DNA of 23,427 nt from a virus. Under the pieces are notes generated by a model, which ran no database searches, was not told the DNA's origin, and worked only from the letters and a program-made list of their open reading frames with translations. Positions 3,001 through 23,427 of this stretch are shown in pieces. The translations under genes were made by a program, and so were the position numbers. The stretch is taken from positions 1 to 23,427 of IMG/VR virus record IMGVR_UViG_3300040801_002555, one strand, 5' to 3'. Positions within the stretch are counted from its first letter, which is position 1, and the number at the start of each line of letters is the position of its first letter.

Positions 3001-6000
3001 AGCGATCCGTCAGGAACATTCGACGGAGGTGATGTTCCAACCTCAACCAATTGCAGCCGGTAAAGTACTCGCGATGGTCCGTTCACATGATACCAGTACA
3101 CTCCTGATCTGTTATTGATCAACGTACCATATGCGTTCTCAAACTCCGTAATGTTATTTGGTGGCATTGTTGGTGGTTGAGGAATAATACCGAGAGGCTT
3201 AGTTCCTGTGTTTGTTGCCGTTCTCGGATCTGGCGTGTTAATCAGTTGGCGAATTATATTTTCGATAACGGCATCTGCAAGGAAATAGTTATTCCTATGA
3301 CCATCGTGGTGAATAATTTGATTAAGTTGGTGATCTTCATCGAACACTTTTGCTGGACGTTGTGCAGCAAGCAACCGAAGAATTGGCAACGTCGCGATCC
3401 AGTTGCGAACACCTAATTCGTCAGTTCCTGTTTGGTCGACGAATGCTGTAGTATCTCCATACCACAGTCCATATATGTCATTTTGTTCGAACGATGTTAT
3501 GATACTATCAATAACCGATTGCTTCAGATCAGGAATTGTTTTTATTGATGTGTCTGATAGTAATTCAACACCATCCCGTCTGAGCAATTCAGACATCGTG
3601 TTCAACATAATCTCATATTGATCTTGCGCAAACTCAAATAATGTCCGAGGTGAAACTTGACGAGAGAACAACGAAGACAAGAAGGTATCAAACCCGTGAT
3701 TATATTCTCTTATTGTCCCACCAAGAGCATGATTGACGTCGTTGATTGGAATCAGATGGAACATATTTTCACGAGGGCCATTGAATCCAGGAACTTTTGG
3801 CTGATTCTGAATGATTGTATTAAAATGCGTCAGCACTTCAGTCAGCGACACAACACGACGATTTTCATGCGCGTAGTTATAATATAATGGGTCGGGAATT
3901 TCCCAATCGCCTTTCCATTCGCCGCTCAACGATAAATGATTTGTTTGGGATGCATACCACCGTTGTTCAGCTTGTTGTTCGGCTTCAACCAAGGTCATCG
4001 ACGGATTAGATGCAATAATTTCTTCGGCAGTTTCTTCAACGAATAACTGCATCTGTTCGTTATACTGTTCAAGCGAACGTTTTTGCCAATCACGTTTTTG
4101 TGGTACGTATGCTTCGTCGTTCAACCCCTTCTTCCATATTGTCTGAAGAGTCGGGTCTTCGTTTGTATAATGAGCCGAGACGGCTTCCCAAGATGAGTTG
4201 AATACTTTGAGCGACCCGTTTGTTGTATCCAACCAATAGGTTCCGTTGGATACGCCCGTTGGAGGAACATCGCTAACAACAGGGGTGGTATACACGCTTC
4301 GAACTAGAACATGTTGCGACCACGCTAATCCATCCCAGAACCAAACATTATTGGTAGATAAGTCAACCCAAACATCATACTGTCTGTTCGCATAATCGCG
4401 GTACGCTAACATTCGATCTTCTTCGTCGAGCAAGAACTGTTCAAACAAATAGTTACCCTCGCCTGATGTTGCTATACGAAGACCAACTGCTCTATTGACA
4501 TCCGCAGACGAGTCTATGGAATATCCAAAGATAGGTGATACAGCATTTGCTGGCGTCCCATCTACGTGGTACAAATCGAACAGCGGATATTGATTTGTAT
4601 CTGCTTTGACTTGTTCTTCTTTTCTAAACGTTATCAGGCTCTTTCGTACAGGTTGTTCTGATGTTGTAACAGCTGCTGCATATTCAGCGTCATCTTCGAT
4701 CGTACGAACAGATATATCCCCCCAACCGAAGTCAGATGGAGTTGCTTCACCAACTTCAATCAACACTTCGTCGAACTGTTGTGGCTGGTTACCAGCATCG
4801 AATATGACTTTTTCCACGAAACCTGAGCTTGTTGAATACTCTTGGTACGTTCCATATTGACGGATACCGTTGATGTATACACGCACATCATTCTCACCAA
4901 CACGTGCTCGTTGACGAAGCGTTCTCGTCGTTCCAGAGAGGGAAGTTGCTGAAAGTTCTAATTCGCTAACCCCTGCCACGTTTTTGATCAAGTAATATTG
5001 TGCATAATATGATGTTGCATAATCATAATCTACACCTGACGATAACGATGATGTATCTACAACAGCAAGTGGGTTGCTTGGTTTATGCGCAACAGGAACA
5101 GTTACTGGTTGCTCTACTAACACCCAATGAACGTTGTATCCTCTCCAGATATCTCCTTGTGACGTTCTTGACGGAACAATCGGATCATTCGGGATAGGTA
5201 CGATATTTTCTGTTATGATGACTTCTGTTCGACCAGGTTGACCAATAGCTGTTTGTTTGTATGATGATGTCAATACTTCAATCGCCAGCCCCGCTGACGA
5301 CATCATCACAACTCGACCTGGAGTAAAATAATCAGTTAAGTCACCATAGCGTTCACTTAAAACAATCGTGTTTGAAAACGGCATTGTATATTCAGCCAAC
5401 TGAACAAGCTCAATATATTCAGGTTTGACGTCTGTATCTTTGAATTTTGACAAATTCTCTGCTCTATATTTCCATCTATATGAAGTTTGTGTCCATTCAT
5501 TAAGCTCTAGATCCCATTCATATTCGATAATAGGAATCTGTGCTTGTTTCGCTATCGAAAAATTAGGCACATTAATTTTATGCAGCCATTTGTTTTGGTT
5601 AATCCATTGATCGCCTGCAGCAACAACTGTTTGAACACCACAACCGACACTCGAATCCCACACTGATGTTCCAACAACTTGGTCAACATAAACTGAGAAA
5701 TTATTCCATAACGCCTTCCATCCAGTAGACGTGTTATACTGGTACAACACATCGCTTGTGGTATCCCACCACAATTGTCCATCACCACACGCAGGTAATG
5801 TTGGTGGAGTTGTATTAGAAATTGCCGACATCAAATCTTCAAAGTCTGTTATCGCATTTCCACACACATCGACATGTGGGGTTGTTTGGTACCATACGGA
5901 GGGCGACTCGGGGTTATCATCCCACGGCAATAGATCCCACCCAATTGTTCCATCGCACTGGCAATCTCTAACCGCATTCGCAGCTGTTAGTAACTCAGCT

Positions 6001-15725: not shown

Positions 15726-16352
15726 TCACACAGCTCCCATGCTAATTCGTGTCGCTTCCATTAACTTCTCTGCCACATCACCGTTCCAGCCGGTCGCAAC
15801 TCGAAACGCACCAATGTCGTTAATTAGTGCAGCTGCGCGAGCTTTTGTTGCACTCATCCCCGTGACATCTGACGCATCAGGATTTCGAACACCCGCGCTA
15901 ACGATTTCAAAAGAGTTAAACAAACTTGATACTGACTCCGATAAACGAGTAAAGTCATTGATCTGATCAGAACCAACAACCATCTTCAAATCTGTGTACC
16001 CTTGCTCACCTAACCATTCAGGAATCATCCAAGGATTATTCGGTGCATTCTCTACTATGTTTGCATTAGGAAATAATGTGCGCATGAATGCGACTTTTAT
16101 TTCAAACGGCAGTGGATTTTTGCTAGTTTTTGGGTTAATCTTCCCTGTTGTTTTTAGCGGAAGATCGATGGTGCGTGATGGAATAATGAAGTGATCACCA
16201 CCAACTTGTTCAGCAAGTGCAGTTACTGTGGCAATTAATTTACCATGCCCTCGTGTTGGAGGGTTGTACCGCCCAAACGAAAATATCGCCCACTTTGCTT
16301 GATCTACAAGTTTTGTGTTGTCGTTTTCAAGAAACTTCGTCAAGGTTGCCAT
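15726..16352 (-). CDS. Nucleotidyltransferase-like protein (NMNAT/cytidylyltransferase superfamily)
   Basis: A 208-residue protein with both active-site motifs of the superfamily: G-R-Y-N-P-P-T-R-G-H at residues 27-36 (the HxGH-type motif, first His replaced by Thr) and M-S-A-T-K at 166-170 (the ISTxK-type motif), plus V-V-G-S-D-Q at 126-130. Such enzymes transfer a nucleotide from NTP to a phosphorylated acceptor, for example NMN or nicotinamide derivatives; the acceptor here is unknown. It is the first gene of the baseplate operon, directly behind the late promoter, and its end is translationally linked to the gp48-like gene. The start ATG at 16352 has GGAG about 12 bases upstream; an in-frame TGA lies just before, so no longer version exists. 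NAD salvage or modification of a host or virion component are both possible. Confidence 0.8.
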   Translation of the reverse strand: MATLTKFLENDNTKLVDQAKWAIFSFGRYNPPTRGHGKLIATVTALAEQVGGDHFIIPSRTIDLPLKTTGKINPKTSKNPLPFEIKVAFMRTLFPNANIVENAPNNPWMIPEWLGEQGYTDLKMVVGSDQINDFTRLSESVSSLFNSFEIVSAGVRNPDASDVTGMSATKARAAALINDIGAFRVATGWNGDVAEKLMEATRISMGAV

Positions 16353-21153: not shown

Positions 21154-21555
21154 ATGGCCTGGAGAGATGGGATTACTACTCTTTTAGAATTCAACAATTT
21201 CTCTCCCTCATTACAGTATTGGAACAAAATCTTAAATTATTTTGATAGACATAAAAACACACTTTCGGTCAGTGATTTAGAAGCGCTGGCTTATGAAAGT
21301 GAACGTTGTCGTCTTTATTGGAATAAAGAACGAACGGAAACTAAATGTTTCCACAAAAACGGAAAAATCCATGAAATGGTGATCAAAAAACCAGGTCTTG
21401 GTATCGAAAAGAACGATGTAAATCCGAATATAGAAAAATTCATAGCACAAAAAACAGAACCGAATATACAAGAAGAATACGAAGACGAGACCCCACCTGA
21501 AGAGAACAATCCCAATTTTGTAGCACAAATGGCAGCATTGCCATATAACAAATAG
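21154..21555 (+). CDS. Hypothetical protein, 133 residues
   Basis: Not recognised. The start at 21154 (M-A-W-R-D-G) is chosen because it follows the FmdB-type stop by one base and has GAGG at 13 bases; an ATG at 21142 inside the upstream gene is too close to that site. The N-terminal half (residues 1-55) looks helical with many aromatic residues (W, F, Y); the middle is basic (K-C-F-H-K-N-G-K-I-H...K-K-P-G); the C-terminal 50 residues are acidic, Pro/Glu/Asn-rich and probably disordered, ending A-L-P-Y-N-K. It is the last gene before the structured non-coding region. A DNA- or protein-binding accessory role is conceivable, but nothing in the sequence decides it. Confidence 0.75.
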   Translation: MAWRDGITTLLEFNNFSPSLQYWNKILNYFDRHKNTLSVSDLEALAYESERCRLYWNKERTETKCFHKNGKIHEMVIKKPGLGIEKNDVNPNIEKFIAQKTEPNIQEEYEDETPPEENNPNFVAQMAALPYNK

Positions 21556-21574
21556 AACGAGAACGAGTTGTAAA

Positions 21575-21775
21575 ACGATTCCGTTGCCCCACGTTACGGG
21601 GAGCGCCACCACTGGCAGGGAAACCGCAGTGTGAGGTCCATAGCAGTTGTGAGTATACTGATCTATGGGATGTGAGAAACTCAACCGTTTGCCAGTACTC
21701 GTATAAACTGGACAGGGGATACCGAAGAAACGAGCCCGTATTTCCTTTGACGTTTGGGTCATAAAGGGGGCGGTT
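21575..21775 (+). ncRNA. Candidate structured RNA in the non-coding gap
   Basis: The gap 21556-21937 holds no supported gene. Its first half is about 53% G+C (21581-21770), against about 32% in the following 120 bases, and contains closely packed hairpins: CCCC/GGGG (21587-21601); CACT-GC-GG closed by a GAAA tetraloop (21610-21631); CCATAG-CAGT/ACTG-AT-CTATGG (21638-21668); TGAG-AAA-CTCA (21673-21683); CCAGT/ACTGG (21692-21711); CCTTT-GAC/GTC-AT-AAAGG (21744-21767). AACCG (21683-21687) can pair with CGGTT (21771-21775), closing the 3' half. No known RNA family is recognised: I see no group I intron core, tRNA, tmRNA or RNase P motifs. Strand is assumed from the flanking genes and the terminator; ends are approximate. 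Confidence 0.5.
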
Positions 21776-21818
21776 ATAAAAATTGTTTTAAGATTGGGTT
21801 TTAATTAAGTCAAGAAAC

Positions 21819-21875
21819 AAGATATAGAGATACGAGCGCAGCGAAGTATCTCTATATCTTTCTCTTTTTATTTTT
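21819..21875 (+). terminator. Strong intrinsic terminator
   Basis: GATATAGAGATAC (21821-21833) pairs perfectly with GTATCTCTATATC (21846-21858), extendable by two A-T pairs, with a 12-base loop, followed by the T-rich tract TTTCTCTTTTTATTTTT. It ends the transcript that carries the recombination genes and the candidate RNA. A-rich sequence before the stem could allow weak function in the other direction. Confidence 0.9.
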
Positions 21876-21937
21876 GTGGATCGGAATGGAGTTTTTGTGT
21901 AAAATTACGGAAGTAGAAATTTTTGGAGGAGACTTTC

Positions 21938-23427
21938 GTGAGCGAAATCTTAGACTTCTGGCCATTTCCATATGAACCAAGAAAAAACCAAGTAAGAGCA
22001 TTAGAATGGCTTTCGGAGCAGGAAGTCCCGTTTCTTTTACTAGAAGCACCCGTAGGTAGCGGTAAATCAGCAATTGGATTGACATATTCACATTACCTCA
22101 ATCAGCGCCATCCTAGCATCCGTGGTGACTCATACATACTGACCCCCCAACGGATCCTACAACAGCAATACGAAGATTCCGTTGAAGGGATTAGCAAAAT
22201 CCATATGGCATCGTTATACGGCAAATCAAACTACACATGCGCAAGAAAAAACACGTCTTGTGACATTGGTAATATAGTGAAACCTAGGTGTGAAGAATGC
22301 CCGTTCCAATTAGCGAAAAAACGTGCTCAGGTTGCACCTGATACGGTACTAAATTACAAGTTAGCACTAACGTCATTTGCGTTCACGAAGACATTTAGTA
22401 GACGTGAATTGCTAGTTATGGACGAGTGCCATACTCTTGAACAACACCTTGTTGATTTCGACGCATTTAAGGTAATGGAAGGCCGATGCAAGAAATACAA
22501 TATTCCGTTCAAGATGCATAAAGAAATTGTTGGTGCGCATTCGTGGGTTAAACAAACATATATCCCAGCACTGAATGACGCACTCAAAAAACTTGAAGAC
22601 GAAATCGAACCGCTTTTTGACAAATCAGGAACCGAGTTAACAAGAGCGGAATTAAAGAAATTACGTGAGTTTTCCTCCTTACAGGATCATGCTGACGAAG
22701 CAGTTGAGATGATACTTTCCTCGCCAGAAACACTTAGCGAACAATTCGTTTTAACATGGGATAAAACGATGTTCCAGTTTAAACGTTTGAAAGGAGAATA
22801 CTCATTCAATAGAATCATCACTCCAATGGCGAACAAGTTCTTGTTCATGTCATCGACGATTTTGAATAAAGATGGATTTTGCGAGGACCTTGGAATACCT
22901 GAGGATAAAGCTGAATTCCTAACTTTGCCTTCCGAATTTGAACCTAGCAACCGCCCTGTGTTTTACATGCCGAAAGCCAAAATGAATTCGAAGTGGAAGC
23001 TGCCAGAGAATAAGGACGGACGAAAAACGATGCTCTCCGCTGTTGAGACGTTATGTTCCGTTCATAAGAACGAAACAGGAATTATCCATACCGGCAACTT
23101 CGAAATTGCACAATGGCTAGTTGAGAACCTAAATGTTGACCACCAGATATACCATCACAATCCTGACATTGGTGATGATCGAAATTCCGTTATTTTTGCA
23201 TTTCAAGGTGAACCTAAACCTGCAATATTGATATCACCATCCAGCACAGAAGGGCTAGATTTGAAAGACGATCTTGCTCGCTTTGCAATTTTTGTCAAAG
23301 TACCGTTCGGATACCTTGGTGATCAGTGGATCAAACGCCGGATGGAAATGTCTCCCGAATGGTACCAGAGACGTGCTCTGATCGACATAATTCAAGGTGG
23401 GGGTCGTGTTGTTCGGTCAGGAGATGA
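21938..23427 (+). CDS. XPD/DinG-family iron-sulfur DNA helicase (partial, C-terminus outside window)
   Basis: At least 496 residues, still open at the right edge. I chose GTG 21938 because GGAGGAG (21925-21931) lies 6 bases before it; the first residues (F-W-P-F-P-Y-E-P-R-K-N-Q) form the Q-motif-like start of the family. Walker A is A-P-V-G-S-G-K-S (37-44); the Walker B box is D-E-C-H (162-165, where most members have DEAH). Between them C101, C108, C118 and C121 are spaced like the 4Fe-4S cluster ligands of XPD/DinG. Motif V-like S-S-T-E-G-L-D and motif VI Q-G-G-G-R-V-V-R-S close the second motor domain. Such enzymes unwind DNA 5' to 3', often at R-loops or forked DNA. It follows the terminator, so it needs its own promoter; TAAAAT (21900-21905) is a possible -10 element without a good -35. 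Confidence 0.9.
   Translation, partial: MSEILDFWPFPYEPRKNQVRALEWLSEQEVPFLLLEAPVGSGKSAIGLTYSHYLNQRHPSIRGDSYILTPQRILQQQYEDSVEGISKIHMASLYGKSNYTCARKNTSCDIGNIVKPRCEECPFQLAKKRAQVAPDTVLNYKLALTSFAFTKTFSRRELLVMDECHTLEQHLVDFDAFKVMEGRCKKYNIPFKMHKEIVGAHSWVKQTYIPALNDALKKLEDEIEPLFDKSGTELTRAELKKLREFSSLQDHADEAVEMILSSPETLSEQFVLTWDKTMFQFKRLKGEYSFNRIITPMANKFLFMSSTILNKDGFCEDLGIPEDKAEFLTLPSEFEPSNRPVFYMPKAKMNSKWKLPENKDGRKTMLSAVETLCSVHKNETGIIHTGNFEIAQWLVENLNVDHQIYHHNPDIGDDRNSVIFAFQGEPKPAILISPSSTEGLDLKDDLARFAIFVKVPFGYLGDQWIKRRMEMSPEWYQRRALIDIIQGGGRVVRSGD

Follow-up and report, generated by a model that had tools for sequence, protein, structure and literature searches.

The 382-base gap in front of a helicase gene in a 23,427-base virus fragment (IMG/VR record IMGVR_UViG_3300040801_002555; hereafter the window, the whole stretch of DNA analysed) most likely holds an independent non-coding RNA gene of the phage, whose family is not represented in Rfam. 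Judged from sequence comparison, the gap almost certainly encodes a real structured RNA with compensatory changes, and this RNA probably has its own transcript. The gene would consist of a pseudoknotted body of ~220 nt followed by a terminator, and the window RNA would be the local version of structured RNAs retained beside one clade of DinG/XPD-like phage helicases. A preliminary description of the window had proposed a structured phage RNA at this place, a proposal now supported by covariation in homologues.

The gap extends from 21556 to 21937, as described earlier, between an open reading frame of 133 amino acids (stop at 21555) and the GTG start codon of the helicase at 21938. It is preceded by genes for a late sigma-like factor, an SbcD-like and an SbcC-like protein, a RuvC-like resolvase, an FmdB-like zinc-ribbon protein and the orphan 133-aa protein; the neighbours of the RNA are recombination and replication genes. 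The G+C content of 21556–21775 and of the next 220 bases was measured as 50.9% and 32.7%, respectively, in keeping with the contrast of ~53% to ~32% given before; equally G+C-rich 220-base stretches make up only 0.5% of the record. The predicted elements, with L001 denoting the nearest relative, are:

21556–21775, + strand: structured RNA body, a conserved block with ~82% identity to L001 over the core, non-triplet alignment gaps and the elevated G+C content.
21587–21601, + strand: hairpin H1 (CCCC/GGGG), weak; ambiguous alignment, one pair broken as aligned with L001.
21610–21631, + strand: hairpin H2, with the GNRA tetraloop GAAA at 21620–21623; two double substitutions against L001.
21638–21668, + strand: hairpin H3 (CCAUAG/CUAUGG and CAGU/ACUG), with a 2-base bulge at 21661–21662; three double substitutions against L001.
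21650–21683, + strand: pseudoknot PK1, H3 loop UGAGU (21650–21654) with ACUCA (21679–21683); one double substitution.
21692–21711, + strand: hairpin P2 of the 3' domain (CCAG/CUGG), unchanged in L001; its counterpart covaries in 15 relatives.
21714–21746, + strand: helix P3, 21714–21722 with 21738–21746; nine pairs unchanged in L001, counterpart covarying in 15 relatives.
21734–21771, + strand: proposed pseudoknot PK2, GCCC (21734–21737) with GGGC (21768–21771), drawn by analogy with relatives; the window group shows no variation here.
21748–21761, + strand: hairpin P4 (UGAC/GUCA), followed by a UAAA linker and a G-run at 21766–21770; unchanged in L001, counterpart covarying in 15 relatives.
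21819–21860, + strand: terminator-like hairpin, 15-pair stem with a U-rich tail to ~21876; folding z = -4.1.
21877–21905, + strand: weak promoter-like site (TGGATC-17-TAAAAT) ahead of the helicase gene; on its own it does not reach significance in the window.
21938–23427, + strand: XPD/DinG-type DNA helicase with four conserved cysteines (phrog_2488, E 6e-92; PF13307), running off the record.

L001 is a gap in a virus record of 147,644 bases, and its helicase is 75% identical to that of the window. The core alignment of the two RNAs contains gaps of 2, 1, 4, 1 and 1 bases; since these are not triplets, a conserved protein-coding frame, the reading that would have spoken against an RNA, is excluded. 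The proposed structure comprises 48 pairs, with 99% of the cells of both sequences paired. Double substitutions occur in six pairs, one of them in PK1 (UGAGU/ACUCA in the window, UGGGU/ACCCA in L001). The one broken pair lies in the doubtful H1, whose counterpart in L001 is a CCUC/GAGG hairpin shifted by one base, and the H2 tetraloop reads GAGA in L001. When the structures were slid by 1–3 columns, 32–48% of the cells were paired and 0–1 double substitutions were found. A shuffle control (7/500) is weak with only two sequences, and both were in view when the structure was drawn; the evidence therefore lies in the slid control and the double changes.

Most of what the preliminary description had read from the single sequence was confirmed: the local hairpins (21587–21601, 21610–21631, 21638–21668, 21692–21711 and a stem at ~21748–21765), the GAAA tetraloop, the strong terminator-like hairpin downstream, and a pseudoknot, which is supported by the double change in PK1 as well as in the wider set of relatives. 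Two identical AU bulges had also been listed. That at 21661–21662 is present in the window, but L001 has UG in its place, so the identity of the bulge is not conserved; the other is more plausibly a piece of the single-stranded UAAA linker. Some arms do have two potential partners, as 21744–21745 can pair upstream within P3 or with 21764–21767; comparative support for a switch between such partners was absent.

Folding energy was rejected as evidence for an RNA because it equals that of shuffled sequence (z = +0.10 for 21556–21820 and +0.58 for 21579–21780), an outcome no better than chance. Together with the empty Rfam search, it is what favors the reading of the gap as a G+C-rich spacer with random hairpins before a terminator and no functional RNA. 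This reading is nevertheless very improbable, being contradicted by compensatory substitutions far above the slid controls and by a covariance model that independently detects further members (see below).

Further relatives of the helicase were collected by helicase alignments from IMG/VR, plus a few in genome contigs; the four cysteines are invariant. These orthologues led to ~40 loci with a long non-coding gap at the equivalent place. Helicases with at least 38% identity usually have 300–800 gene-free nucleotides upstream, whereas distant ones (≤32% identity) have a gap of ~50–140 nt, with no room for the RNA. Among the relatives the position of the RNA is constant, directly 5' of the helicase and on the same strand; the window RNA likewise lies on the same strand as, and directly 5' of, a helicase of the RNA-bearing clade. 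In a tree of 52 helicases, a 43-row clade (support 94/95) includes every RNA-bearing locus, with the helicase of the window nested among them and seven distant helicases outside. RNA groups, assigned to the gaps by eye, change 13 times on this tree versus 34.3 times when shuffled. The upstream genes vary between loci while the linkage of RNA and helicase stays. Four helicases within the clade (L022, L023, L037 and L038) and two adjoining it (L027 and L031) were classed as RNA-free. In L022, L023, L027 and L031 its place is taken by an opposite-strand gene of 240–280 aa, nucleotidyltransferase-like by eye, and the upstream gap of L038 carries tandem ATTATTATACAACACT-like repeats and no recognisable RNA. 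At another locus (L080:1302–2520) the helicase gene is split at the ATP-binding loop by an apparent intein.

Relatives of the helicase are carried by Xanthomonas phage XacN1 and Stenotrophomonas phages CM1 and RAS14, and those of XacN1 and RAS14 fall within the RNA-bearing clade and have long upstream gaps. Transcription, binding partners and the effect of a deletion are therefore testable in cultured phages. In XacN1 (L006, ~3400–3870), an upstream AATAAACCCCCCG and the G-run preceding the helicase are exact complements of each other over 13 bases; 8 contiguous pairs of this complementarity are left in RAS14 (L007).

Fifteen gaps (groups B, D and F) could be aligned across a 3' domain of 80–90 nt; the structures that RNAalifold drew from automatic whole-group alignments outside this domain were unreliable. 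Within the domain, 99.3% of the cells were paired versus 76.2% in shuffled alignments, and covariation reached 0.771 versus 0.272 (slid versions ≤0.18). Double changes occur in 9 of the 10 pairs, and the conserved pairing includes G-U pairs. A pseudoknot is supported in this set as well, as the G-run behind the 3' domain is complementary to one of its loop strands. The exact complementarity of each loop with its own tail averaged 5.82, compared with 4.80 for exchanged tails; the observed value was attained in 0 of 20,000 permutations, and with near-copies collapsed to nine clade representatives in 952 of 362,880. Duplex energy was discarded as a test of this pseudoknot: it did not discriminate (708 of 5000 permutations were equally low), because any C-run pairs with any G-run, and exact complementarity was used instead.

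A covariance model built from the 3' domain of the 15 relatives (R1) matched two loci that had played no part in its construction, L036 (E 6e-5), which belongs to another group, and L080 (E 1e-4); both matches lie directly 5' of the helicase. Over four whole records, R1 gave one significant match each, at the helicase. In the window R1 found no match (4 bits with filters off). Because R1 is insensitive to groups other than its own, the lack of matches elsewhere carries little weight. A sequence profile of the window found none of the other groups, and sequence profiles gave no convincing link to the window, the best (0.0035, group D) covering the stretch around the terminator. As both R1 and the window profile miss, the case for a common origin with the other groups is built on synteny, layout and the helicase tree. 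The window and L001 contain, in order and invariant between the two, the P2 hairpin, P3, the loop C-run, the P4 hairpin, an A-rich linker and the G-run. From these three lines of evidence the window RNA probably belongs to the same family as the RNAs of the other groups, and its synteny, layout and nested helicase make it likely a divergent branch of the helicase-linked RNAs. Groups A, C, E and X and three ungrouped gaps are supported by place, length and within-group motifs, with within-group sequence conservation in addition for A and C. Across groups, the sequence diverges fast and the architecture is kept; the RNA stays with the same helicase clade despite a near-complete change of sequence.

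A hairpin, CTGGCTATTNAATTAGCAG, is also part of the 5' domain in RNA groups A and B. When scanned away from the helicase, it appears as a small, mostly intergenic hairpin in unrelated phages, the rest of the RNA being absent from these copies. It is intergenic in unrelated phage contigs such as L127, L130, L132, L134, L135 and L140, among others, and is sometimes repeated with compensatory changes (GGCTA..TAGC and GGCGA..TCGC in L132).

In group C the RNA lies behind a sigma-70-like promoter (mean best match 9.55/12 versus 7.89 shuffled), and a promoter-like site lies before the helicase across 36 loci (9.14/12 versus 7.64), relative to shuffles that preserved single-base composition only. In the window, no significant promoter was found near the RNA or before the helicase. 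Between RNA and helicase, both the window and L001 have a terminator-like hairpin. Promoter-like sites before both genes and a terminator-like hairpin between them suggest that RNA and helicase are transcribed separately and that the RNA acts in trans instead of being a leader. The competing reading is that of a cis-acting leader, a riboswitch, attenuator or autoregulatory element that would respond to a ligand or to the helicase and thereby govern transcription through the hairpin at 21819–21860 into the helicase gene. The constant position 5' of the helicase on the same strand, the intervening terminator-like hairpin and the alternative partners of some arms are all compatible with such a leader, which we regard as unlikely: in most loci the promoter-like sites between RNA and helicase start would bypass its control, the RNA reaches 800 nt and is large for a leader, and conserved alternative pairing with the terminator stem was not found, L001 having at this place a hairpin with a different stem sequence.

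A role as replication origin, in which the transcript primes synthesis via an R-loop and the helicase acts on the hybrid, is quite improbable. Recombination and replication genes adjoin the RNA, and cumulative GC-skew minima lie 3–8 kb from it in two large records and in the window. These minima, however, are away from the RNA and explained by a switch in gene direction, for which reason the skew was rejected as an indication of an origin. Furthermore, the conserved feature is RNA pairing, G-U pairs included, and not DNA sequence. In the window the minimum is at 16030, where structural and replication genes change direction, and minimum and direction switch also coincide in two large relatives. 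The whole records of L112 and L043 (L150–L183) contain several more stretches of 250–870 bases without an open reading frame of at least 45 aa, some of which may be RNA genes.

For the RNA as an independent gene, we infer action in trans, with production alongside the phage replication and recombination genes. Because the RNA is co-inherited with one helicase clade while the genes further upstream vary, the helicase is its foremost candidate partner. Enzymes of the XPD/DinG type are generally known to use RNA-DNA hybrids as substrates, along with other unusual structures. The RNA could be a partner, a regulator or a bound substrate of the helicase, for example by loading it onto RNA-DNA hybrids or by keeping it inactive. 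That the two work together is a tentative proposal, with chances somewhat below even, as such linkage can persist without an interaction. A bolder version, a phage ribonucleoprotein in which the fast-evolving RNA serves as a dedicated cofactor or guide of a DinG/XPD-type helicase, co-inherited across large phages and without a known counterpart, seems rather unlikely; if true, a dedicated RNA for a replication or recombination helicase would be unexpected. Just as doubtful is a trans-acting RNA directed against the host, a decoy or mimic titrating a host or defence protein, for which the linkage to the helicase would be incidental. Fast sequence divergence with a kept architecture fits an arms race, and the promoter before the RNA in group C is in line with such an RNA, but a decoy would not be expected to remain tightly linked to one clade of helicases where the upstream genes change, and a resemblance to any known RNA was not found.

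Large phage genomes contain many genes without an assigned role, and their structured RNAs have received little study. Rfam 15 gave no match at the gathering score for the window and 20 loci; at a relaxed E-value, the window region and nine loci returned only weak, unrelated matches, GOLLD and ROOL not among them. The lack of a known family fits the possible novelty of the RNA raised in the preliminary description. ARAGORN found no tRNA or tmRNA in the window, tRNA genes were absent near the RNA across 36 loci, and the gap DNA showed no similarity to annotated phages. In titles and abstracts of the open-licence literature no description of the helicase-linked RNA was found, and the text of the XacN1 genome paper mentions neither non-coding RNA nor intergenic regions nor the helicase (PMC5852040). 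Large computational surveys of phage RNAs may already contain it as an unnamed candidate.

The gene downstream of the RNA is a member of the phage DinG/XPD-like helicases of phrog_2488, whose distant members differ by their short gaps without RNA. Among known RNAs, GOLLD is a large, pseudoknotted phage RNA whose function is not known and whose 3' region is better conserved than its variable 5' region, and ROOL an ornate phage-borne RNA with no known protein partner (PMC12286853). The helicase-linked RNA shares with GOLLD its occurrence in phages, a large size, the pseudoknots and the better conserved 3' and variable 5' regions, and with ROOL the ornate fold in a phage setting and the lack of a known protein partner. 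An RNA-only assembly of this type, in which the RNA multimerises and plays a structural role, would accord with the phage-borne, ornate and pseudoknotted RNA and its 3' domain, conserved as in GOLLD (PMC12286853). This is improbable, as the Rfam models of GOLLD and ROOL do not recognise the RNA, the window RNA is smaller, and tRNA genes are missing from the surroundings. In contrast to GOLLD, which exceeds 800 nt, the helicase-linked RNA has ~220–500 nt, lacks an Rfam match, adjoins a helicase and has no tRNA genes nearby; from ROOL it likewise differs by lacking an Rfam match and lying away from tRNA genes. The known RNAs most alike in kind are GOLLD and ROOL, which, judged by Rfam models and tRNA surroundings, are a different family; the helicase-linked RNA would be a family new to Rfam 15 of a precedented kind, the orphan structured phage RNAs that these two represent.
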